Shown here: positions 34,702 through 47,256 of the stretch, piece after piece | Position numbering within the stretch: the first letter of the stretch is position 1 | How the letters are laid out: each line of letters begins with the position of its first letter | IMG/VR virus record: IMGVR_UViG_3300032173_000540 | Coordinates: 1-54,048 of that record | Source of the DNA: a virus | Length of the DNA: 54,048 nucleotides | Strand: one strand, 5' to 3' | Made by a program: the position numbers and the translations under genes | Notes under the pieces: model-generated | The model's database searches: none | Seen by the model: only the letters and a program-made list of their open reading frames with translations | Told to the model about the DNA's origin: nothing

Positions 34702-37700
34702 ATGGCAACAGCACAAGCAAATCAAAAAGTATTCGTATCACCAGGCGTATACACATCTGAAACCGACTTATCATTCGTAGCCCAAAGTGTGGGTGTAACG
34801 ACTTTAGGTCTTGTTGGAGAAACTTTAAAAGGTCCAGCATTCGAACCAGTATTCATAACTAACTATGATGAGTTCCAAGCTTATTTCGGGGGAACAGAAC
34901 CCGTTAAGTTTTATAATACTCAAATACCAAAGTATGAGGCGGCATATATTGCTAAATCATATTTACAACAATCTAACCAATTGTTTGTTACCAGAGTTTT
35001 AGGTTTATCGGGTTATGACGCAGGACCATCATGGACTCTTAACGTCACAGCCAATGTAGACCCAACAACTATCGGTAACCCATCTGTTGGTGTCGCATTT
35101 ACTGCTGGCTTTACAGGAAGCTCAACAGGTAATACAATTACATTTATTAGTGGAGCATTACCTCTTGAAGTTGATGCAAATTTAAATGTTGAGTATAGAT
35201 TACAAGACGGCACAACATCAACATTACAAGATGACTTTAATACTTATTTAGACGGTATTATGGATATACCATCAACATCCGCAACTACTGCGGTTATATA
35301 TGGTGCGATACCTGAAGCTGACTACCAAACTTTAGTTGGAACATATACAACAGATTATAGTCCATATGGTTGTGAAAATAATTTCACACAGAACGAATTA
35401 ACTGAAGGTGCTAACGATTCTTGGTATTATGCTAACTTTGAATTTGAAAACAATGACTCATTAACAGGTAATTATACAGGTTATTCATTCTATTACACTG
35501 TTTCTAATTTAGTTTCAGGAGCGTCTAGTACATTTACGGGAACTATTGTTGGTAATTCATACACATTTACTGGTACTGCGTATTCAGAATTTAACAACAT
35601 GGTTGTCGGAACTATTCGTTCAAGAGGAATTTCTCTTTTTGATAATAGTAGTGCTAGTGAAAACCACGGTCCTGTTTATCAAGTAAGTGGACTTACAGAT
35701 TTACAATTAATATGTACTGGTCAATATTCTGGTATTACAAAATCACCTTACGCTACTTTCTTATTATCAGGGGTAACAAGAGAATTAGATACATTCTCAT
35801 TTGAGACTTCATTATTAGCTTCATCGGCAAAATATATTACTAAAGTATTGGGTGTTGATAATTTTGGTAAATCAAGATTTGAAGTACCAATTTATGTTGA
35901 GGAAGCATATCAAGCGTCTTTAAATTATGCATATAACCAAGGTTATATTCGTGGGTTAGCGTGTGATTTAATTGCATTACCTGATGCTAGAAGTGAAAAT
36001 AGTTCATCAATAGCATATAATTTAGAGCAGTATCAATCACCTGAAACACCTTATTTAGTTTCAGAATTAAGAGGTAACAAGGTTTACAAATTATTTAAAT
36101 TTATCTCAATCTCTGATGGTGATTCGGCAAATACTGAAATTAAAGTGTCTATAGCTAACTTATCATATAATAATATGTCATTTGATGTATTAGTTAGAAA
36201 TTTCTTTGATACTGATGCAAACCCTATTGTAATTGAAAAATTCACAAATTGTAATATGGACCCAGCAACAAATAACTTTGTGGCTAAAAAAATAGGTTCA
36301 TCTAACGGTGAGTTTGCGTTAATTTCAAAATACATTATGGTTGAACTGGCTGATGAGGCACCAATAGATGCGTTACCTTGTGGTTTCTATGGTTATACTC
36401 AAAGAGAATATGAAGATTACGCTCTTTACCCATCACCATATCCTAAATTTAAAACAAAATATTATTTTCCAGGTGAGGTTGTTTCTAACCCACCATTTGG
36501 TTCTGCTGCAGGAGGAGCTCCAGTTCAGTCTGCAGGAGATATTGTTAGAAGAAATTATCTAGGTTTTTCAAGTCAATTTGGTATTGATGAATCTTTCTTA
36601 ACATATAAAGGTAAACAAAATCCTTCAAATTGGATTTCAAATCCTTTGGCGGTTGGTCAACCTTGGAATGTGGTAAGTAAAGGTTTCCACATGGACTCAG
36701 GAGCAACTGTTGTTACACTTGGTAATCTTGTAGCTGATAGTGGTCAAACTGCATTTGAATGTGGTGTCGCTGAATTTAGAGAAGACCCAGGAACACAAGA
36801 TAACCCATACTACTTTATTTACTCAAGAAAATACACAATATGTTTCGCGGGTGGATTTGACGGATGGGACATTTACAGAGAGTGGAGAACTAACCAAGAT
36901 AGATTCCAATTAGGTTCTTCAGGTTATTTAGCAGGAGCGTCAGCTTCTTCAAGATATCCAACTGCAACAGGTGACGGTTTATTCAAAAGAATTGTAGTTC
37001 AAAATAACACACAAGACTTTGCAAACACTGACTACTATGCGTACTTACTTGGTATCTTAACATTTGCTAACCCTGAATCTACAAACATTAACGTTTTTGC
37101 AACAACAGCGATTGATTATGTTAATAACTCAAACTTAGTAGAAGAAGCAATTGACATGATTCAATACTCAAGAGCTGACTCGGTTTATATTGCAACAACT
37201 CCTGACTACCAAATGTTTACTCCTGACTCAACTAACTCTTTAGATATCATCTACTCACAAGAAGCGGTTGATAACTTAGATAACACAGGAATTGATTCTA
37301 ACTATACTGCAACTTATTATCCTTGGATTTTAACAAGAGATACAGTAAACAATACTCAAATTTACTTACCACCAACAGGTGAGGTTTGTAGAAACTTAGC
37401 GTTGACAGATAACATTTCATTCCCTTGGTTCGCATCAGCGGGTTACACAAGAGGTCTTGTAAACTCAATCAAAGCTAGACAAAAACTTACACAAACAGAC
37501 AGAGATACATTGTATCAAGGTAGAATTAACCCTATCGCAACTTTCTCTGATGTTGGAACTGTAATTTGGGGTAACAAAACATTACAAGTTGCTGACACAG
37601 CACTTAACAGATTGAACGTAAGAAGATTATTACTTCAAGCTCGTAAGTTAATTTCAGCGGTAGCGGTAAGATTATTGTTTGAACAAAACGACCAAGTTGT

Positions 37701-37917
37701 TAGACAACAATTCTTGGATAGTGTTAATCCTATCTTAGATTCAATCAGAAGAGATAGAGGTTTATACGATTTCCGTGTAACCGTATCTTCAACACCTGAA
37801 GATTTAGATGCTAACAGACTTGTAGGTAAAATCTACTTAAAACCAACGAAGGCTTTAGAATTCATTGACATTGAGTTCTTTATTACTCCAACAGGAGCTT
37901 CGTTTGAAAATATCTAA
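34702..37917 (+). CDS. Contractile tail sheath protein (T4 gp18-like)
   Basis: The C-terminal ~350 residues are characteristic of phage sheath proteins: YTRGLVNSIKARQKLTQTDR, then NVRRLLLQARKLISAVAVRLLFEQND, and YDFRVTVSSTPEDLDANRLV with a closing KALEFIDIEFFITPTG. The N-terminus (KVFVSPGVYTSETDLSFV) is the usual sheath opening. At 1071 residues it is ~400 longer than T4 gp18 (659). The excess includes Ser/Thr-rich beta segments at about 110-330, probably surface-exposed. It assembles around the tube and contracts on infection. It has its own candidate promoter and ends before a strong hairpin. Confidence 0.95.
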   Translation: MATAQANQKVFVSPGVYTSETDLSFVAQSVGVTTLGLVGETLKGPAFEPVFITNYDEFQAYFGGTEPVKFYNTQIPKYEAAYIAKSYLQQSNQLFVTRVLGLSGYDAGPSWTLNVTANVDPTTIGNPSVGVAFTAGFTGSSTGNTITFISGALPLEVDANLNVEYRLQDGTTSTLQDDFNTYLDGIMDIPSTSATTAVIYGAIPEADYQTLVGTYTTDYSPYGCENNFTQNELTEGANDSWYYANFEFENNDSLTGNYTGYSFYYTVSNLVSGASSTFTGTIVGNSYTFTGTAYSEFNNMVVGTIRSRGISLFDNSSASENHGPVYQVSGLTDLQLICTGQYSGITKSPYATFLLSGVTRELDTFSFETSLLASSAKYITKVLGVDNFGKSRFEVPIYVEEAYQASLNYAYNQGYIRGLACDLIALPDARSENSSSIAYNLEQYQSPETPYLVSELRGNKVYKLFKFISISDGDSANTEIKVSIANLSYNNMSFDVLVRNFFDTDANPIVIEKFTNCNMDPATNNFVAKKIGSSNGEFALISKYIMVELADEAPIDALPCGFYGYTQREYEDYALYPSPYPKFKTKYYFPGEVVSNPPFGSAAGGAPVQSAGDIVRRNYLGFSSQFGIDESFLTYKGKQNPSNWISNPLAVGQPWNVVSKGFHMDSGATVVTLGNLVADSGQTAFECGVAEFREDPGTQDNPYYFIYSRKYTICFAGGFDGWDIYREWRTNQDRFQLGSSGYLAGASASSRYPTATGDGLFKRIVVQNNTQDFANTDYYAYLLGILTFANPESTNINVFATTAIDYVNNSNLVEEAIDMIQYSRADSVYIATTPDYQMFTPDSTNSLDIIYSQEAVDNLDNTGIDSNYTATYYPWILTRDTVNNTQIYLPPTGEVCRNLALTDNISFPWFASAGYTRGLVNSIKARQKLTQTDRDTLYQGRINPIATFSDVGTVIWGNKTLQVADTALNRLNVRRLLLQARKLISAVAVRLLFEQNDQVVRQQFLDSVNPILDSIRRDRGLYDFRVTVSSTPEDLDANRLVGKIYLKPTKALEFIDIEFFITPTGASFENI

Positions 37918-37928
37918 TAAAAATTTAT

Positions 37929-37949
37929 GGGGGTACATACAGTACCCCC
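37929..37949 (+). terminator. Strong GC hairpin after the sheath gene
   Basis: GGGGGTAC (37929-37936) and GTACCCCC (37942-37949) form a perfect 8-base-pair stem with a 5-base loop, beginning 12 bases after the sheath stop. No long T-tract follows, so it may be a weak terminator or an mRNA-stabilising end. Its run of G and C stands out in this AT-rich genome. Confidence 0.6.
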
Positions 37950-37962
37950 TAATTGCCAAAGT

Positions 37963-38790
37963 ATGAAAAGACAAATTAAAGAGGGATTTAAAGGAGAGGG
38001 TACTCCAGACATGAAATATTATGCGTTTGATTGGGATGACAACATTGTTCATATGCCAACAAAAATAATGTTAAAGACTGAAGACGGAGATGAAATTGGT
38101 ATGAGTACTGATGACTTTGCGGAATACAGACATGATTTGGGTAAAAAATCTTTTAAATATAAAGGTGAAACTATTGTTGGTTTAGCAGACGACGCTTTTA
38201 GAAACTTTAGAACTGATGGAGACAAAGATTTTTTAATTGACACAATGAGAGCTAAAGAAGGTCCAGCATTTGGAGACTTTAGAGAAGCGATTAATAACGG
38301 TTCAATATTTTCAATTGTTACTGCAAGAGGTCACAAACCTGAAACATTAAAACAAGCCGTTTACAATTACATTGTTAGTGGATATAATGGTATAGATAAA
38401 GACCAACTAATTAAAAACCTTAAAAAATATAGGACGTTTGTCGGTGAAGAAGATATGAGTGATGACGATTTAATTAAATCATATTTAGAACTCAACAAAT
38501 ACCATCCAGTTACGTTTGGAGAGGGAAGTGCCGCCAATCCTGAAGAATTAAAAGTTAAAGCTATGGATGAATTTGTTTCCTATATAAAAGGAATTGCTGG
38601 TATACTTAATAAAAAAGCATATATAAAAAATGATATATCTAATAACTTTATACCAGAGCAACCTAGTATTGGATTTTCAGATGATGATATTAAGAATGTA
38701 GAAGTAATGAATAAACATTTTAAAAATAAACCAGATAATATAGTTAAGACTTATTCTACTGCTGGAGGTATTAAAAAGGAATATAAATAA
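37963..38790 (+). CDS. HAD-like protein with D-W-D-D motif
   Basis: The protein (275 residues from this start) has MKYYAFDWDDNIVHMPTK, a HAD-like nucleophile motif D-x-D-D, and FSIVTARGHKPETLKQAV as motif II. The remaining ~150 residues are helical and charged. HAD proteins of this kind occur between structural genes in several large phages, with unknown role. An ATG at 37927 is in frame but lies in the hairpin that ends the sheath transcript. The ATG at 37963 is preferred, and 38011, which follows an AGGAGAGG run, cannot be excluded. Confidence 0.75.
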   Translation: MKRQIKEGFKGEGTPDMKYYAFDWDDNIVHMPTKIMLKTEDGDEIGMSTDDFAEYRHDLGKKSFKYKGETIVGLADDAFRNFRTDGDKDFLIDTMRAKEGPAFGDFREAINNGSIFSIVTARGHKPETLKQAVYNYIVSGYNGIDKDQLIKNLKKYRTFVGEEDMSDDDLIKSYLELNKYHPVTFGEGSAANPEELKVKAMDEFVSYIKGIAGILNKKAYIKNDISNNFIPEQPSIGFSDDDIKNVEVMNKHFKNKPDNIVKTYSTAGGIKKEYK

Positions 38791-38889: not shown

Positions 38890-39378
38890 ATGGCTGATTT
38901 ATTAATGAAAATGCCGATACCTTACGAACCAAAACGTCAAAATCGTTTTATCCTAAGGTTTCCATCAAGTTTGGGTATAAACGAATGGTTTGTAGAATCA
39001 ACGGCTAGACCACACATCACAATTGCTGCAACGGAAATACCGTTTTTAAACACATCTACTTACGTTGCAGGTAGATTCAACTGGCAAACAATTCCAGTTA
39101 AATTCCGTGACCCTATTGGACCTTCAGCGGCTCAAGCTCTTATGGAGTGGGTTCGTTTACATGCTGAATCAGTAACAGGTCGTATGGGTTATGCTGCGGG
39201 TTACAAAAAAGACATTGACCTTGAAATGTTGGACCCAACAGGAGTTGTTGTTGAGAAATGGATTCTTTATGGAACATTCTTAACAGACGTTAACTTTGAT
39301 TCGTTGGCGTACAATACTGATGGATTAGCAACAATATCTGCGACATTGAGAATGGATAGATGTGTGTTAGTTTACTAA
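38890..39378 (+). CDS. Tail tube protein (T4 gp19-like)
   Basis: At 162 residues it matches T4 gp19 (163) in length. It opens PYEPKRQNRFILRFPSSLGI, a typical tube-protein start. It goes on with VPVKF-like strands (NWQTIPVKFRDPIG), AALMEWVRLHAESVTGRMGY, YKKDIDLEMLDPTGVVVEKW and a final ISATLRMDRC. It polymerises as hexamer rings to form the inner tail tube inside the sheath. The gene has its own candidate promoter and a terminator, as suits a product needed in many copies. Confidence 0.93.
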   Translation: MADLLMKMPIPYEPKRQNRFILRFPSSLGINEWFVESTARPHITIAATEIPFLNTSTYVAGRFNWQTIPVKFRDPIGPSAAQALMEWVRLHAESVTGRMGYAAGYKKDIDLEMLDPTGVVVEKWILYGTFLTDVNFDSLAYNTDGLATISATLRMDRCVLVY

Positions 39379-39410: not shown

Positions 39411-39448
39411 TTAACCGTAAGGCAATAAACTTTACGGTTAATTTTTTT
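39411..39448 (+). terminator. Rho-independent terminator after the tail tube gene
   Basis: TTAACCGTAA (39411-39420) pairs with TTACGGTTAA (39432-39441) over an 11-base loop and runs into seven T residues. It ends just before the ATG at 39451, so the next gene must be read from readthrough or from a start site within or close to the hairpin. Confidence 0.88.
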
Positions 39449-39450
39449 AT

Positions 39451-40194
39451 ATGGATACACAATCAAACGACTACGGTCAACAAAATTTTACACTACCACA
39501 CGATGTGGTACCATTACCTTCACAAGGTATTTTCTACAAAAATAAAAAGAAATCACTCAAAGTCGGATATCTTACAGCCTCTGATGAAAATATTTTAATG
39601 GGTGGTGGAAATGATTTAACACTTAATTTATTAAGGGGAAAAATTTATGAACCAGATATTAGGGTTGAAGACCTTATTGAAGGAGATGTTGAAGCAATTT
39701 TAATCTTTTTAAGAAATACTGCGTTTGGACCTGAAATAAGTTTAAATCTTACAGACCCAAAAGATAATAAATCATTTAGAACGTCGGTAACGTTAGACCA
39801 ATTAGCCATTATTAATGGTCAACAACCAAATGAAGATGGTACATTTACTACAATGTTACCAAAATCACAATCAACTATTAAAATTAAACCATTAAGTTAT
39901 GGTGAAATTTTAGAAATTGGTAAAATGGCGGAAACATATCCTCAAGGTAGAGTAGTTCCAAGAATTACATGGAGAATGCAAAAAGAGATTATTGAAATTG
40001 ATGGCTCAACCGATAAAGCGGTAATTGCTAAATTTATTGAATCAATGCCAATCGCAGATTCAAAACACATTAGAAAGTTCATGAATGAAAATGAACCAAG
40101 ACTTGATATGAATAAAACGTTAATAGCCCCGTCAGGAGAACGTCTAACAGTGAATGTTGGGTTTGGGGCGGACTTTTTTCGTCCTTTCTTCTGA
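39451..40194 (+). CDS. gp26-like baseplate hub / tail assembly chaperone protein
   Basis: The 247-residue protein has LPHDVVPLPSQGIFY, a Pro-rich opening, and LKVGYLTASDENILMGG, the conserved start of the T4 gp26-type baseplate family. IKIKPLSYGEILEIGKMAETYP and the final SGERLTVNVGFGADFFRPFF also fit. It lies directly before the tape-measure candidate, the position of tail assembly chaperones in other tailed phages. Its last codons overlap a second reading frame at 40154-40333, reachable at the run of six T (40174-40179) by a +1 or -2 shift. Family call is good; chaperone role is inferred from place. Confidence 0.8.
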   Translation: MDTQSNDYGQQNFTLPHDVVPLPSQGIFYKNKKKSLKVGYLTASDENILMGGGNDLTLNLLRGKIYEPDIRVEDLIEGDVEAILIFLRNTAFGPEISLNLTDPKDNKSFRTSVTLDQLAIINGQQPNEDGTFTTMLPKSQSTIKIKPLSYGEILEIGKMAETYPQGRVVPRITWRMQKEIIEIDGSTDKAVIAKFIESMPIADSKHIRKFMNENEPRLDMNKTLIAPSGERLTVNVGFGADFFRPFF

Positions 40195-40333
40195 TTATAG
40201 AAAAGGACAGATAGACGAGTTTTACTATCTTAACACTTTAATGAAAATAACGTATCAAGATTTTGAAAGGATGCCTGTTTTTGTTAGAAAATATTTATTA
40301 GATAAATGGATTGAAGATAATCAGAAGGACTAA
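40154..40333 (+). CDS. Overlapping second-frame segment: recoded C-terminus of the gp26-like protein or separate 59-residue gene
   Basis: In the +1 frame relative to the gp26-like gene, an ATG at 40154 and an open frame to TAA at 40331-40333 encode about 59 residues. They include SSDYRKGQIDEFYYLNTLM, then KITYQDFERMPVFVRKYLL and DKWIEDNQKD. This has normal amino-acid composition and helical pattern, unlike a chance frame. It can be read as an independent T4 gp51-like gene overlapping the end of gene 26. It can also be a frameshift extension from the six-T run, giving a long form of the chaperone. The downstream hairpin covers its stop. Which mechanism applies cannot be settled from sequence. 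Confidence 0.6.
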   Translation: MLGLGRTFFVLSSDYRKGQIDEFYYLNTLMKITYQDFERMPVFVRKYLLDKWIEDNQKD

Positions 40334-40350
40334 AAATTTTAGTCCTTCTT
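40323..40350 (+). terminator. Perfect 13-base-pair hairpin between chaperone and tape measure genes
   Basis: AGAAGGACTAAAA (40323-40335) is exactly complementary to TTTTAGTCCTTCT (40337-40349) with a single-base centre. It contains the TAA that stops the overlapping frame. The following sequence is only moderately T-rich, so termination may be partial. Confidence 0.75.
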
Positions 40351-40377: not shown

Positions 40378-42201
40378 ATGGCAAAAGACGATAACCAAGA
40401 AGGTAGTTTTAAAGAAATCAAGAAAGAACTTGATAGTTATGCTAGTCCTTTAGAAAAAATCACAATTTCTTTGGACGAAATGTTTAAACATGCGGACAAA
40501 ATTAATAGGGCGTTTGTTGCTGGCAGAGTTAGAATCCAAGAAATGGATTTGGCGGTTGCAAATTCGGCATCAGGTATAATAAGATTAGGGGGAAGTCTTG
40601 AAGATGTATCTACAACTATTACCCAAATAGCCGCTGGCTCAAGAAGAAATGTTATTGCTACCGAAGAGCAGGTTAGTAAATTATACGCATCATCTAAAAT
40701 CTTAAACACAGATGCAAATCTTTTAGTTGATACATTTGCTAAAGTTGGATATGAAACTTCTCAGATAGGACCTAATATAGAAGAATCTATTGGATATATT
40801 CAAAGTATTGGGTTAAATGCAACAACAGTAATGAAAGACGTTACCGCCAATATGGAACAAATGAATCGTTTCCAATTTGAAGGTGGTGTTGCTGGTTTAG
40901 CTAAAATGGCCGCACAAGCCTCAATGTTAAGGTTTGATATGAAACAAACTTTTGATTTGGCTAATAGAGTTTTAGACCCTGAAGGAGCTATTGATACTGC
41001 GGCGGCGTTTCAAAGATTAGGAGTGTCTGTCGGTAATTTAGCAGACCCATTTGCTTTAATGAATCAATCTATTAACGACCCATCTGGGTTACAAAATAGT
41101 TTAGCTGAAGTATCAAAACAATTCACATATTTTGATGAAGAGACAAAATCATTTAAAATAAATCCTCAAGGTGTTTTAACATTGAGAGAAATGGAAAAAC
41201 AAACAGGTGTTAGTGCTGCGGAAATGAGTAAAATGGGATTAGCCGCTGCGGAATTGGACAAAAGATTGTCTGAAGTTAGTTTGGCGGGTTTAAAGTTTGA
41301 AAATGAGGAAGACAAACAATATTTGGCTAACATATCCAAAATGGGTAAAGGTGGAAAATATGAGGTTGAATTAAAAGACGGAACCAAAAAAGAATTACAA
41401 AATCTTAATCAAGAAGAGTTTAATGAGTTAATTGAACAACAAAAGAATGCTCCAAAAACTGTTGAAGATATACAAAAAAGTCAATTAGGTGTTCAAAAAG
41501 ACATATTGTCAAATATGCAATCTGCAGCCGCAAAGGTGACTTTTGGGGTTGCATCTTCAAAGTATGTTGAAGGTAACACTAGAGGGGCGGAAAGAATTGC
41601 AAGAGCGGTTAGTTCTTCTGTTGAAGGCGAAGTACCTGAAAGTAGAGTTATTTCCGAAAAAGTAACAGGAGCTATTGATAAAATGCGTGATTTATTTACT
41701 GGTAAAGACCAAGGTAAAATTGATAACGCAACATTTACTAAAAACTTAGAATCAATTCAATCTGACCTTAAAGCTCAAGCAACAAGTTTAGGTCCAAAAG
41801 GTATGGATGCTTTAAGAGACATATTAGTTAAAAGTAATGAAAAAATTAAAGGTGATAGTGGTATTGAAAAAGAGTTTAGAAAATATACTTCAGATATTTT
41901 AACAGGTATTGGTGGGAATACAACAACAAAAGTTGCGGGAATTACAGGAACACAAAAATCAGAACCATTATCAAGAAGTGCGGTTTTTGGTAAAGGAAGT
42001 TCAGCGATTGCCCAAGAAAATAAAACAAAGACAACAAATGTTAATTCACAAGTAGATTTTGGTGGCACAATTACAATTAAAGTAGATGCTCCTCCAGGTG
42101 TTAGTGAACAACAATTTAAAACATTTTTTGAATCAGATGAATTCAAAAGAAAAATTTACGAATACTATAATCAGAAAGCAAAAGAGTTAGAAAGAAGATA
42201 A
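40378..42201 (+). CDS. Probable tape measure protein (gp29-like)
   Basis: The 607-residue protein is near T4 gp29 in length (590). It is Ala/Gln/Ser-rich and mostly helical: ITQIAAGSRRNVIATEEQVS, VAGLAKMAAQASMLRFDMK, MGLAAAELDKRL. Long amphipathic helices like these, with no Cys, match tape measure proteins. It follows the gp26-like chaperone and precedes large baseplate genes, the usual place of a tape measure. A C-terminal Gly/Val-rich beta segment (VDFGGTITIKVDAPPGVS) precedes a final helix. If tape length scales with tail length, the tail should be about T4-sized. Confidence 0.75.
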   Translation: MAKDDNQEGSFKEIKKELDSYASPLEKITISLDEMFKHADKINRAFVAGRVRIQEMDLAVANSASGIIRLGGSLEDVSTTITQIAAGSRRNVIATEEQVSKLYASSKILNTDANLLVDTFAKVGYETSQIGPNIEESIGYIQSIGLNATTVMKDVTANMEQMNRFQFEGGVAGLAKMAAQASMLRFDMKQTFDLANRVLDPEGAIDTAAAFQRLGVSVGNLADPFALMNQSINDPSGLQNSLAEVSKQFTYFDEETKSFKINPQGVLTLREMEKQTGVSAAEMSKMGLAAAELDKRLSEVSLAGLKFENEEDKQYLANISKMGKGGKYEVELKDGTKKELQNLNQEEFNELIEQQKNAPKTVEDIQKSQLGVQKDILSNMQSAAAKVTFGVASSKYVEGNTRGAERIARAVSSSVEGEVPESRVISEKVTGAIDKMRDLFTGKDQGKIDNATFTKNLESIQSDLKAQATSLGPKGMDALRDILVKSNEKIKGDSGIEKEFRKYTSDILTGIGGNTTTKVAGITGTQKSEPLSRSAVFGKGSSAIAQENKTKTTNVNSQVDFGGTITIKVDAPPGVSEQQFKTFFESDEFKRKIYEYYNQKAKELERR

Positions 42202-42249: not shown

Positions 42250-45200
42250 ATGGGTAGTCCATTAGATTATATAAGCTCAGAGGGTTTTAGAAAAAAACTA
42301 ATAACAAGGAATTTAGTACCATATGCTAAGTCCCCTACCAAAGTTACGCCCCCAACAACTTATGAGGTTATTCAATCAGATTATTCTGTAGTTGATAGTC
42401 CTGATGGTCTTATTGATACAACTTTTTTTGCCGACAAACAATACCCACTTAATAAGTGGGGTAACGACGGAGGTTATAAACAAGCACCTGATATTAGTGG
42501 AAATTTAAATACTGTCTCAAATAAAGGTGAATATGGCCCTGGTCAACAAGATGCTCACATTATTGACCAAGCCAAGATTGCAGCACAAACAGGGTTTAAT
42601 GGTATTACTGGACCTTATTTGTCGGTTAATGCTTTTGGTAATGGAGGGTTAGAACAATATGATGCTGGTGTTTATATTACAACACCAGATACAATATCAA
42701 GTACACTTCCTGGTGGAGCAATACAACTATATAATAATCAACCTTATCCCACAACCTTTAATTCTTCTTCATATAGTCCACTATCAATTTTATTAAGTCC
42801 CGACCCAACAGGTAGTAATGGATTATTAAGTCAAGATTCATTTATAGCTCGTTTAGGTGCAAAGACACTTAAAAAAGAATTTGAAGAAAGAATTGGTAGA
42901 GCGATTATTAGAGAAACTATTGGTCGTGCCAACTTTTTAAATGTTAATAGTAGCACCAATCTTGTTAATATTTTAACAGGTAGAGTTCCTTTAATTGAAC
43001 CTAATTATCAGATTACCGTTCCTTCTAATCCTATAACAGCAGCTGCGGATTTTGGACTTAGATTAGGTGGTAGTCTTTTACCGTTTTCATTAATACCTGG
43101 TTCATACTTTGACCCAAATATTAATCCTGGCCAACCAACAACAATTGGACAGTCTTTGTTAGCAAATCCAATTGCTGCCGTAGGTAACTTTGTTAGTAAT
43201 TTATTAGGTGCTGGTAAAACAGGTACACAGATATTTTACAATAATACAGGTGCTGGACAAAAATCTATATTGTGGAAAAACATTAACTACAATAGATATA
43301 AACCAAATTACGATAGAACATTACTTGATAGATTAGGAGGGGCTATTGTAGGTACCGAAACAAATAATTCTAACTTCTATGTTGGGTCAATAAGTTCTGA
43401 CCCGTCAAGAGTATTTTCACCAAGTAGAGCGTTACCTACAGATGCCTTTGGTAACGAACAACAATCACCTGTATACGGACCACATGAGTTAGCTCAATTA
43501 TATGAAGGTCCAAGTAAAGAAATTCGTTTAGGTGCTAACGGTCCAATCTATAGTAATGGTGGTGGTATTGAAGGTGGATTCACTTGGGTGTCTCCAAAAT
43601 ACAAAGGAAATGCGGGTAAGAAAGTAGGCGTGGGTGGGGTTATATTAGACCAAGATGAAGATTTTAAACCCTCATCATATAATACAACCGAATCTACAGA
43701 AAGGAAATTTAAACAAGGTTCCATACTTGACGACACCCAAAGACTTATTGATAGTCAACCAGAAGGTGGTAAAAGATTACAACACGTTGGTAATGCGATT
43801 GACCAAGTTAGTAAGGTATTCCATGATGGTTACAAAGAATTAACTAAGGGTTCAAGGGTTATACAATATACGGGTTCTATTGGACAAGAAGTTGGAACTG
43901 AATATTGTAGAGTTTTTACTAAAGACGTACCATATCTTCAATTTAACGACCTTCAAAAAACCGATGGTATCGTAACCGAAGGTAGAAGATTTTCATATTC
44001 AGTATTAGATAAAACATATAATCTTAATATTGCTCCAAACAAACAAGAGGGTGGACAAGATTCAACAAATTTGATTGGAAGTTATAATAATGCATATGCT
44101 AAAAAATATATGTTCTCACTTGAAAATTTGGCATGGGCAACTTCAAACACACCAGGATTTGCTGTTGCGGATTTACCAGTTTGTGAACGAGGACCAAACG
44201 GAGGTAGAGTTATGTGGTTCCCACCTTATGGTTTAACTTTTAGTGAAACTGTTACTGCTAATTGGAATGCCAATGAATTTATAGGTAGACCAGAACCAAT
44301 ATACACTTATAAGAGTACAAATAGGTCTGGTAGTTTAACTTGGAAAATAGTTGTTGACCATCCGTCTGTTTTAAATGTTATTGTTAATAAAGTGTTAGCT
44401 AATGAAACAAATAAAGTTAGAGTTGATAGTATTTTAGAATCATTTTTTGCTGGATGTAGAAAATATGATTTATATGAACTTGCAAAAAAATATTATACAA
44501 TATCACCTAATGATTTATTTGAGATACAACAAGCTATTTCATCAAAAGAATTAACAAGAGAACAGTTAGAATATACTATTAGTACAATCAAAACAACTCC
44601 TGAGTTATCTAGTGATACAGGAACTGGTGGTTCTCCTGAAGCAACACTTAATGTTTACAAACAAAGTGGTTTTTACTTTGATAATGATATACCAAAACAA
44701 CTTAATCAAAATTTTGGTCAATTATATGGCCCATATATTTCGCAAAAAACCAATTATCAAAAAAAATCGCCAAGTACTGCTGAGCAAACAACCTCATTCT
44801 TTGATAGTGTGGTTACACCAAACAAAGATAATATTGATAAGTTAATTAACGAATTAGATAAACAATTTACTAATAACCCCGAAGGTACGGTAACTATTAT
44901 TATTAGTAGTAGTACATCACCCGCAGCCAAAAAGGAATATAACGATAAGTTATCTGCAAGAAGAATTAATTCTGCCGCGATATACATTACGGGTAACACT
45001 AAGATGAAAAAATATGTCACTGGTACTCCACAAAGATTAATTGTCAAAGTTGGAGCGGCGTTAGGTGAAAACGCTCAAGTACTAAAGTATGACGATAAAA
45101 CTAAAAGTTTTGTGCCAGGAAGCAGTGTTTCTTGTGGTGATGGTGATGGGGCTGACAGTCAAGCGTTAAATAAAGAAATTTATACAACAAATGCAATGGC

Positions 45201-47256
45201 TTGTAGAAGGGCGTATATTTCTGACATTCAATCAACATTAAAGGCGCCAAAAGTTGTACCAACCCCTAAAGAAACTACTGTAATTACAGGTAATGTTGTT
45301 ACAAAAACAGAAACGCAGAAAACAACAACAAATGTAGAAGTACCAAGAGATAATATTAGTAAAAGGGTGTTAAGGTCGTTATTATCTGAGTGTGATTATT
45401 TTGAAACAATTAAAGAAGAAACTCCTATGGTTTATGATAATCTTAGAGACAAATTAAAATTCTTCCAACCATCATTCCACTCAATTACTCCAGAAGGCCT
45501 TAATTCAAGATTAACGTTCTTACAACAATGTATGAGACCTGGTGATACAATACCAACAATTAAAACTATTGACGGAGCACCAACACCCGTATATAATGAT
45601 GCAACAAACACGTCTTTTGGTGCACCACCTGTTTTAATTTTAAGAGTTGGAGATTTTTACAATACAAAGATAATTCCAAACAACCTATCTATTACCTATG
45701 AAAACTTGGATATTAATCCTGAAGGTATTGGGGTTCAACCTATGATTGCTAATGTTACTTTATCATTTAATTTTGTTGGTGGTAGTGGATTAAAAGAATC
45801 GGTTGATAAATTACAAAATGCGTTAACGTTTAACTATTATGCTAATACTGAAATATATGATGATAGGGCGGACGCAACCGATTTAAGTTATAAAGTAATT
45901 GACGCTGAATTTTTAAAATTGGCGCCAAGCAATGTCGGGCCTCCAACTATTAATCAATCAACACCTAATAATGGTCAAAGTAATGATAAACCAATTGGTA
46001 CTGTAACAAGTAATGTTATAAGTGATACAGGTCAAACAGGTACAATTAACTATAGTATCTTCATGGATAAAGTTGTAACAGAGACTCAATCATATTTTAC
46101 AAATGTTGTTAATAAAAATAGAGAAACGGTTAACCAATATAATAATGCCGTTCGTCAACAATGGATGATGGAACGAGTATATACTGAGGGTAAATTTGAG
46201 ATAACTAAAGATAATAAAACAATACTTTTTGGTAAGTCTTACAATTTAGAAAAAAGAACCGATGATTTATTTGCACAACTTGTTAAAGACATTAAAGACG
46301 GTGACGAAGGATTTATAACGTTTATCTCGGATAGTTCTAAATTATTTTCAAACAAACTTATAAGACAAGTTAAGGAAAACTATTCAAACTTTGTTGGTGG
46401 TAAAAGAAGTTCATTTCAAAGTGCGATAACTAATATTACAAATAGTATGGTTGCAGTACAACAAAGTTATATTGGATATATTGGAAGAATTAATACTATA
46501 ACATATAGTGTAAACCCTAATACAGGAACTGATGGGTATCAACAAAGTAACGGTAAAGTGTTTTCATATATATTATATCCAACAACAGAGGTTGATACTA
46601 GTTCATCACCAGCAACAGATACTTTAGTTGAACTTGAAAATGATGTTAAAAAAATAAACAGCGGAATTACTGAATTTAATACGATTGTAGAAACTGAACA
46701 AGAATTTACTTATTCTGGTAAAAAATATAAAGGAACTTTAGTTTTACCTTTACCTTATAAATTACCTTCAGGTGAAAAAGTATTCGTACCTTTTAGTGAA
46801 AATACTTTATTTGAAAATGATATTTTTAGAAATGTTTATATGATTGTTTCTGACGATGTTACCGATAGTAAAAAATATGAAACATTTAAAAATGCATTAA
46901 TTGGTAATATACTTGGTAACACGGGATTAATAGGTAACGGTGCTGATAATATTAGTGAAGTTTTTGATGCTTATTGGGATAAAATTGCAAAACCTGCATT
47001 TGTTGAAGAAAACAACATCACTAAAGAATTTATAAATTATATGGAAAAAGAAAAATTAAAAGATTTCTTAAAATACACTCCATTCACACTTAAAAAGAAA
47101 AGAACGTTTACTTATGATACTGAAAACGCAAATACTGAAGCACAACAACAATTGATAAAAGGTTTAGGTTGGGTTGAAAACCAAAACACAAATAATAAAA
47201 CGTGGAATGACGAAAAGCCTGCAAACGTATTTATATCTAAAGCAAAACTTAGCTAA
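42250..47256 (+). CDS. Large baseplate protein with an internal OmpA-like domain
   Basis: The 1668-residue protein has a long Asn/Gly-rich N-terminal part. A region around residues 640-740 follows: LAWATSNTPGFAVADLPVCE, then FIGRPEPIYTYKSTNRSGSLTWKIVVDHPS, typical of tube-capping baseplate proteins (gp48/gp54 type). At about 850-940 is an OmpA-like domain with DKLINELDKQFTNNPEGTV, then KLSARRINSAAIYI, the helix that carries the peptidoglycan-contacting Arg. At about 1125-1240 comes VLILRVGDFYNTKIIPNNLS and VQPMIANVTLSFNFVGGS. The last third is a charged, mixed region. The size and mix of domains indicate a multi-domain baseplate hub or wedge protein. Confidence 0.8.
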   Translation: MGSPLDYISSEGFRKKLITRNLVPYAKSPTKVTPPTTYEVIQSDYSVVDSPDGLIDTTFFADKQYPLNKWGNDGGYKQAPDISGNLNTVSNKGEYGPGQQDAHIIDQAKIAAQTGFNGITGPYLSVNAFGNGGLEQYDAGVYITTPDTISSTLPGGAIQLYNNQPYPTTFNSSSYSPLSILLSPDPTGSNGLLSQDSFIARLGAKTLKKEFEERIGRAIIRETIGRANFLNVNSSTNLVNILTGRVPLIEPNYQITVPSNPITAAADFGLRLGGSLLPFSLIPGSYFDPNINPGQPTTIGQSLLANPIAAVGNFVSNLLGAGKTGTQIFYNNTGAGQKSILWKNINYNRYKPNYDRTLLDRLGGAIVGTETNNSNFYVGSISSDPSRVFSPSRALPTDAFGNEQQSPVYGPHELAQLYEGPSKEIRLGANGPIYSNGGGIEGGFTWVSPKYKGNAGKKVGVGGVILDQDEDFKPSSYNTTESTERKFKQGSILDDTQRLIDSQPEGGKRLQHVGNAIDQVSKVFHDGYKELTKGSRVIQYTGSIGQEVGTEYCRVFTKDVPYLQFNDLQKTDGIVTEGRRFSYSVLDKTYNLNIAPNKQEGGQDSTNLIGSYNNAYAKKYMFSLENLAWATSNTPGFAVADLPVCERGPNGGRVMWFPPYGLTFSETVTANWNANEFIGRPEPIYTYKSTNRSGSLTWKIVVDHPSVLNVIVNKVLANETNKVRVDSILESFFAGCRKYDLYELAKKYYTISPNDLFEIQQAISSKELTREQLEYTISTIKTTPELSSDTGTGGSPEATLNVYKQSGFYFDNDIPKQLNQNFGQLYGPYISQKTNYQKKSPSTAEQTTSFFDSVVTPNKDNIDKLINELDKQFTNNPEGTVTIIISSSTSPAAKKEYNDKLSARRINSAAIYITGNTKMKKYVTGTPQRLIVKVGAALGENAQVLKYDDKTKSFVPGSSVSCGDGDGADSQALNKEIYTTNAMACRRAYISDIQSTLKAPKVVPTPKETTVITGNVVTKTETQKTTTNVEVPRDNISKRVLRSLLSECDYFETIKEETPMVYDNLRDKLKFFQPSFHSITPEGLNSRLTFLQQCMRPGDTIPTIKTIDGAPTPVYNDATNTSFGAPPVLILRVGDFYNTKIIPNNLSITYENLDINPEGIGVQPMIANVTLSFNFVGGSGLKESVDKLQNALTFNYYANTEIYDDRADATDLSYKVIDAEFLKLAPSNVGPPTINQSTPNNGQSNDKPIGTVTSNVISDTGQTGTINYSIFMDKVVTETQSYFTNVVNKNRETVNQYNNAVRQQWMMERVYTEGKFEITKDNKTILFGKSYNLEKRTDDLFAQLVKDIKDGDEGFITFISDSSKLFSNKLIRQVKENYSNFVGGKRSSFQSAITNITNSMVAVQQSYIGYIGRINTITYSVNPNTGTDGYQQSNGKVFSYILYPTTEVDTSSSPATDTLVELENDVKKINSGITEFNTIVETEQEFTYSGKKYKGTLVLPLPYKLPSGEKVFVPFSENTLFENDIFRNVYMIVSDDVTDSKKYETFKNALIGNILGNTGLIGNGADNISEVFDAYWDKIAKPAFVEENNITKEFINYMEKEKLKDFLKYTPFTLKKKRTFTYDTENANTEAQQQLIKGLGWVENQNTNNKTWNDEKPANVFISKAKLS

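Follow-up and report, generated by a model that had tools for sequence, protein, structure and literature searches.

The question raised by the window (the whole stretch of DNA analysed, 54,048 nucleotides, positions 1 to 54,048 of IMG/VR virus record IMGVR_UViG_3300032173_000540) is how the reading frame that overlaps the 3' end of its gp26-like tail assembly chaperone gene, here called G, is expressed. Recoding of the +1 or -2 type had been proposed from the letters of the DNA (the original prediction), and the elements on which this was built, namely a gp26-like gene ending at 40194, a second frame open from 40154 to 40333 and a meeting point of both frames at GAC-TTT-TTT-CGT (40171–40182), were all found in the sequence. 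Comparison with hundreds of related contigs makes it very probable that a programmed +1 frameshift at UUU extends G into this second frame, T, and gives a 293-residue long tail assembly chaperone, G-T. The features at the junction are the following.

39451..40194, + strand: G gene, gp26-like short tail assembly chaperone, 247 residues, zero frame, stop TGA 40192–40194 (PF12322, PHROG 150, fold matches)
40126..40169, + strand: upstream RNA hairpin, outer stem 40126–40131/40164–40169, inner stem within 40141–40149/40155–40163 (covariation, folding energy)
40154..40180, + strand: upstream open part of the +1 frame, ATG 40154, probably no separate start (TAG in three relatives, no Shine-Dalgarno (SD) site, overlap with the hairpin)
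40174..40182, + strand: frameshift site TTT-TTT-CGT, P-site slip codon TTT 40177–40179, A-site CGT 40180–40182, +1 re-pairing on TTC 40178–40180
40181..40333, + strand: T segment, continuation of the reading in the +1 frame, VLSSDYRKGQIDEFYYLNTLMKITYQDFERMPVFVRKYLLDKWIEDNQKD, stop TAA 40331–40333 (conservation, +1 third-position bias, predicted helical)

Conservation of the two frames

The +1 frame opens with an ATG (40154) directly 3' of a TGA at 40151 and runs to the TAA at 40331–40333 (59 amino acids); the 3' end of G in the window sequence reads ...GAC TTT TTT CGT CCT TTC TTC TGA. The TAG at 40198–40200, which had been taken for the stop of the -1 frame, is a zero-frame triplet (position mod 3 = 1); the -1 frame stays open as far as a TAG at 40212. 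Viral contigs and annotated records were compared with the window, and their loci are designated L041, L180 and so on. Junction and +1 open reading frame (ORF) were kept in 80 of the first 80 viral-contig relatives (81–100% identical to the window), two of which are truncated where their contig ends. Among 27 representatives with over 3% nucleotide difference, substitutions in the T ORF beyond the G stop numbered 143, 55 and 337 at +1-frame codon positions 1, 2 and 3, with 260 synonymous against 152 non-synonymous codon changes. This pattern argues that the +1 ORF is under purifying selection, and the claim that it encodes a protein-like sequence was upheld by its retention in relatives and by the third-position bias.

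Selection was visible in both frames. In a codon-conservation test on the same 27 representatives, 7 of 10 amino-acid-invariant sites in codons 235–247 of G were also codon-invariant, as against 8 of 103 in codons 13–221 (Fisher p = 1.6e-5); conservation of the junction is far beyond chance. IMG/VR was also scanned with the junction pattern, which matched at least 120 stretches, 79 of them readable, and the G frame was open in 79/79 of the readable matches among those listed. As is characteristic of the G/GT arrangement, the second ORF overlaps the 3' end of G in another frame and is conserved without a start codon of its own. When folded with AlphaFold apart from G, the T segment was predicted to form helices.

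Proposed slip site

Across 60 unique junctions of the window clade, codon 243 was TTT in all 60, codon 242 was TTT in 57 and TTC in 3, and codon 244 was CGC, CGT or CTC. Alignment of the junction for conservation of the T run had been suggested as a check; the slip TTT itself is invariant, and the TTT before it may be replaced by TTC. L362, L364 and L366, for example, read GAT TTC TTT CGY (Y, pyrimidine), and the layout persists there with no TTT two bases upstream. Among 81 unique junctions of +1 members outside the window clade, a pyrimidine followed the slip TTT in 80, and 12 did not have the TTT that a -2 slip needs. Junctions without it are those of L169–L183 (TTC TTT TGG), L083 (AAC TTT CTA), L085 (TTC TTT CGT) and immuto (AGC TTT CTT). 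The same layout was present in the cultured phages Bacillus SP-15, LIS04, Streptococcus GXN1, Microcystis phage Mel-JY01 and Flavobacterium phage immuto, and in the uncultured LR756508; LIS04 (TTT TTT AGT) is the sole case in which the first TTT would have to slip.

In the window, TTT CGT has the make-up of the UUU_C(GN) class of +1 sites, with UUU in the P site, C as the next base and a little-used CGN codon in the A site. CGN accounts for 79 of 460 Arg codons (17%), CGC for only 4 (0.9%), and in-frame TTT_CGN occurs once in the 37 window genes, at this junction. If TTTC is read as one Phe step, the 293-residue fusion ...NVGFGADFFVLSSDYRKGQ... results. The predicted junction peptides are LTVNVGFGADFFRPFF without a shift and LTVNVGFGADFFVLSSDYR (DFFV) after a +1 shift; a -2 shift would add one F (DFFFV).

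Translation is proposed to take the following course, in which one mRNA would supply two tail assembly chaperones. Most ribosomes would terminate at the TGA at 40192 and release the 247-residue G. When UUU (40177–40179) occupies the P site and the A site presents CGU, an Arg codon of low usage, a fraction of the ribosomes would advance by one base, the Phe tRNA would re-pair with UUC, and reading would continue with GUC CUU UCU... to the TAA at 40331, giving the 293-residue G-T fusion. The hairpin (40126–40169) would refold behind the ribosome, 4 nucleotides before UUU_UUU, would probably push it forward, and would probably take the role of the SD stimulator, to which Bacteroidia-type ribosomes are blind. 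If lambda gpG/gpGT is a guide, G may coat the tape measure protein and the rarer G-T may recruit the tube protein.

Upstream RNA hairpin

The hairpin covers codons 226–240, its 3' end lies 4 nucleotides before TTT_TTT, and the inner stem of the window itself pairs 40144–40149 with 40155–40160. Over the 60 unique window-clade junctions, 0 of 660 pair cells were broken in the 11-pair core, and the four variable core pairs switched only among standard pairs. For covariation, a diverse set of 63 members was picked by the junction and not by the hairpin; a count on 20 close relatives was uninformative, the arms hardly varying. In this diverse set the outer stem was present in the minimum-energy fold of 61 members, outer-stem pairs exchanged C-G for A-U, U-A and G-C, and inner-stem pairs exchanged G-C for C-G and A-U. 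Two-sided changes numbered 90 against a shuffled mean of 37.6 (none of 500 shuffles as high) and the covariation score was 0.334 against 0.190 in shuffles (0/500 as high) and 0.07–0.13 in slid controls, values that are to be read as strong indications and not as probabilities, the shuffles ignoring shared ancestry. By these counts the upstream hairpin covaries.

Folding energy was lower than in synonymous-codon shuffles in 57/57 genes (mean z -2.38; control window 150 nucleotides upstream, -0.05). The energy trend was weaker in other +1 clades (mean z about -1.2) and lacking in the -1 cyanophage-type clade (+0.3 to +0.6). Codon 239 was GGG in 54/57, GGG making up 118 of 743 Gly codons overall. 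A +1 arm of the gp26 family that would shift at UUU_Y and carries a covarying upstream hairpin appears to be undescribed, as far as the literature examined shows.

Two other structures were noted. A downstream hairpin (GTCCTTTCTTCT/AGAAAAGGAC) was considered as a shared stimulator and rejected; it is strong in the window and not kept in relatives. At the start of the G gene (39451–39540), too, folding energy is low compared with synonymous shuffles (mean z about -2.1), and several codons are invariant.

Shine-Dalgarno sites and probable host

An SD-like site precedes only 2 of the 37 window genes. The arrangement of prfB and dnaX, an internal SD-like sequence (3 nucleotides upstream for +1) in an SD-using host, was not found at this junction, where the GGGG ends 8 nucleotides before the P-site codon and is paired within the hairpin. 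Ribosomes of Bacteroidia do not recognise SD sequences (PMC9976891), and in work with a 70S system the +1 stimulation that a stable upstream hairpin exerts at a slow codon reached about 60% of the effect of an internal SD (PMC6321510). Taking these facts together with the window genes without SD sites, we infer that the hairpin may replace the usual internal SD stimulator. The prfB gene of F. johnsoniae retains an SD-like site (PMC8710568), so that SD-blindness alone does not forbid stimulation of the SD type.

The rare SD-like sites and the GC content of 31.7% point to a host that is probably of the Bacteroidota type, and immuto, among the cultured phages with the same +1 layout, is a Flavobacterium phage. 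No tRNA genes were found in the window (1–54048), and no relatives were found in bacterial or archaeal genomes among the genome contigs searched. On balance, and with confidence somewhat above even, the junction is regarded as a natural +1 shift in phages of SD-blind bacteria (probably Bacteroidota), stimulated by a conserved hairpin re-forming behind the ribosome. This arrangement would be a natural counterpart of the SD:anti-SD duplex of prfB and would set apart a deep +1 branch within the T4 gp26 family. In the literature examined, an upstream-hairpin stimulator has so far been a designed element in reporters.

Alternative explanations

Three other routes into the T frame were weighed. A -2 slip on the T run would reach the same frame with one additional Phe; phage Mu extends a gene of this kind by -2 (PMC5009743), and in the window the TTT at 40175–40177 would allow the Phe tRNA to re-pair. 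Re-pairing two bases upstream would have to be possible in all members, and it fails in those with TTC TTT CGY, TTC TTT TGG and AAC TTT CTA: with TTC at codon 242 a -2 slip would place the Phe tRNA on TCT, which excludes -2 in the window clade, and outside it the relatives without the upstream TTT, immuto included, still keep TTT plus pyrimidine nearly everywhere. The direction is for this reason read as +1 and not -2, so that the +1 half of the recoding claim was borne out and the -2 half, very improbable here, was dropped. No more credible is that T is an independent overlapping gene, with its start at ATG 40154 or with translational coupling, and is made without a frameshift, even though the ATG is present in 57/60 window-clade junctions and truly split genes exist in L180, L184 and Cygsa01. 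A TAG lies between the +1-frame ATG and the slip site in L041, L042 and L292; no ATG, GTG or TTG occurs in the open +1 stretch before the slip in 32/81 of the other +1 members; and among pattern-found members 5/57 have no start codon and 38/57 no ATG. In many relatives T could thus not be separately started, as their lack of start codons indicates. In addition, the split relatives L180 and L184 do not have the TTT-Y site, the bases of ATG 40154 fall in and beside the inner stem of the hairpin, which offers another reason for their retention, and the ATG has no SD at the usual spacing; it is probably not translated as a separate T start. The least credible route is slippage of RNA polymerase on the T run, which would put the T frame in phase in a share of the mRNAs. 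The window has six T in a row and many relatives have seven; six T are short for bacterial transcription slippage. The members with TTC TTT CGY, TTC TTT TGG and AAC TTT CTA have runs of only 3–4 T and keep the layout, and an upstream hairpin tied to the +1 branch would not be expected from slippage of the polymerase.

A more serious possibility, though still the less favoured one, is that the frameshift occurs as proposed and the hairpin is incidental or acts elsewhere, for instance in RNA stability or in controlling initiation; its action on the ribosome is deduced, and the structure signal at the start of the G gene is of similar kind. Its position fixed 4 nucleotides before the shift site, the two-sided covariation, the GGG at codon 239, the lack of such a signal in -1 relatives and the published +1 effect of upstream hairpins (PMC6321510) speak for a part in shifting. 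Several observations weigh against the proposed +1 shift with hairpin stimulation. Measured against its own shuffles, the hairpin of the window strain has no more than moderate stability (z -0.94 for 131 nucleotides, p 0.043 for 54 nucleotides), only 51–62% of diverse members retain the pairs at the inner-stem tip, the spacing from hairpin to P site is 7 nucleotides as compared with 3 for the SD of prfB, and the shared ancestry ignored by the covariation shuffles counts here as well. The chaperone fold matches of G are weak (Z under 6), and the window itself has the +1-frame ATG, so that some extra separate T protein may be made there.

Fold and family history

The G protein matched PF12322 (T4_baseplate) with 31.1 bits (cut-off 24.5), which places it in the gp26/gp51 family, and PHROG 150 (baseplate hub) with E 4e-10. 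G and T were folded separately with AlphaFold, and the G model had a predicted local distance difference test score (pLDDT) of 86. A Foldseek search of this model against the PDB gave no significant match, chaperones appearing at low rank only; when the top 1000 solved chains from Foldseek were realigned with VIA-align, the best scores went to YqbN (Z 5.6), which we take to be a tail chaperone relative, the HK97 tail assembly chaperone (4.9) and a PICI (phage-inducible chromosomal island) protein (4.5), followed by 2.7. The modelled fold of G accordingly seems to resemble tail chaperones, with a modest but specific signal.

The comparison with T4 genes 26 and 51 in the original prediction proved a good lead. 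T4 gp26 and gp51 both match PF12322, the gp51 C-terminus matched cyanophage T in hhalign (97%, E 3e-11), and cyanophage T in turn matched +1-type T (86%, E 5e-6); a direct profile hidden Markov model comparison of +1-type T with T4 gp51 gave no match (38%, E 3.5). By these profile comparisons T and the C-terminus of T4 gp51 belong to one family, linked only through the cyanophage homologues. Cyanophage gp51 holds only the C-terminal part (Sullivan 2010; PMC3037559). S-RIM8, Aeromonas phage 65 and cyanophage-type contigs have U_UUU_UUC with T in the -1 frame.

In a quick tree of G, whose deep nodes are weak, all +1 forms fall in one starred clade of 39 rows, which also contains -1 forms (LR756511 group) and split forms (L180, L184), and the duplicated T4 forms group with the -1 form of Aeromonas phage 65 (support 92). 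The suggestion of an intermediate arrangement between recoded and separate genes finds no support in this picture, in which +1 is the common state of one deep clade, split forms are nested within it and the T4 duplicates stand nearest to a -1 form. Relatives with an independent start for T, which had been named as telling against recoding, do exist. In L180 and L184, T forms a separate gene in the -1 frame, located just behind the G stop and with an ATG of its own; the TTT-Y slip site is lost, and on the tree they adjoin immuto, which keeps the +1 site. Because the slip site is lost and they are nested inside the +1 clade, these forms look derived, as if the frameshift had been naturally replaced by split genes. 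L088, L190 and L192, relatives of the huge phage LR756511, have T in the -1 frame with TTT TTC or TTT TTT TTC near the junction; from their placement, the LR756511 relatives are taken as a switch of direction inside the +1 clade.

In three annotated records T is given as a separate small gene from an internal start (L202, 3232–3369, S-RIM8; L194, 3836–3946, immuto; L087, 3740–3859, SP-15), annotated as baseplate hub assembly catalyst or hypothetical protein; these look like frameshifted ends of the gp26-like gene.

Comparison with known systems

The G/GT principle is already known. In lambda gpG/gpGT and similar systems a short and a frameshift-extended tail assembly chaperone are made from one gene, which lies between those for tail tube and tape measure (PMC5009743). 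The window shares the short protein with a putative extended form and a weak fold match to solved chaperones; unlike in lambda, the shift would be +1 at UUU_Y and not -1, the family is gp26/PF12322 and the stimulator is seemingly an upstream hairpin. A 2016 review singled out T4 as the exception to G/GT frameshifting among long-tailed phages (PMC5009743), and the gp26/gp51 duplication of T4 as the non-frameshift version has been published (Vladimirov 2022, as far as it is cited in PMC10885494 and PMC12846349). T4 and the cyanophages with gp26 and a short gp51 have the same G family, and T groups with the gp51 C-terminus via cyanophage T. Unlike the window, T4 has retained two complete genes, in one of which T is an in-frame fusion (Vladimirov 2022, to the extent cited in PMC10885494), and cyanophages and Aeromonas phage 65 use the -1 site U_UUU_UUC.

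Phage Mu extends the same kind of tail chaperone gene into the +1 frame by a -2 frameshift (PMC5009743), the mode that relatives without the upstream TTT exclude here. The UUU_CGN +1 class is represented by influenza PA-X (PMC3498833) and plant amalgaviruses (PMC5052127), with which the window shares the UUU_CGU slip site with a little-used CGN in the A site; it differs from them in its bacterial ribosome, double-stranded DNA phage genome and upstream hairpin, and the A sites of relatives also hold UGG, UAC, CUC and CAC. With prfB and Listeria PSA the junction has in common a putative +1 P-site slip at a slow A-site codon; prfB also has an upstream duplex, for which an mRNA hairpin here stands in place of SD:anti-SD.

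If the +1 shift is real, one family makes the same pair of products by a +1 shift, a -1 shift, split genes or duplicated genes, and the gp26 family data suggest how recoding can be replaced. The upstream hairpin would offer a testable answer to the question of what could drive SD-ignoring ribosomes forward, and UUU_CGN would bring to bacteria a +1 motif known from eukaryotic viruses. Several public genomes carry T segments that are wrongly annotated or overlooked, and this annotation can be corrected.

Tail locus

34702–37917: sheath gene (Pfam match)
38890..39378, + strand: tail tube protein gene, 5' of G (PHROG 4542 tail tube, E 2e-24)
39411..39441, + strand: terminator-like hairpin 5' of the G gene
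40323..40349, + strand: terminator-like palindrome 3' of the T stop
40378..42201, + strand: next gene 3' of G-T, 607 residues, tape measure by position only

The order along the window is sheath, a 287-residue gene without family match, tail tube and G. The claim that a chaperone is recoded just before the tape measure gene stood as far as a recoded chaperone after a clear tail tube gene is concerned; the tape measure downstream is assigned by position. The 607-residue gene (40378–42201) gave no family match in Pfam and PHROG searches, had no clear phage relative and did not match the immuto tape measure; the gene at the equivalent place in the relatives immuto and LIS04 is annotated as tape measure. 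The 1668-residue gene at 42250–47256 is also without a recognisable family, and either this or the 607-residue gene may be the tape measure. The 287-residue gene (37927–38790) sits between sheath and tube, an unusual insertion in that order. The terminator-like hairpins at 39411–39441 and 40323–40349 flank the G-T unit.
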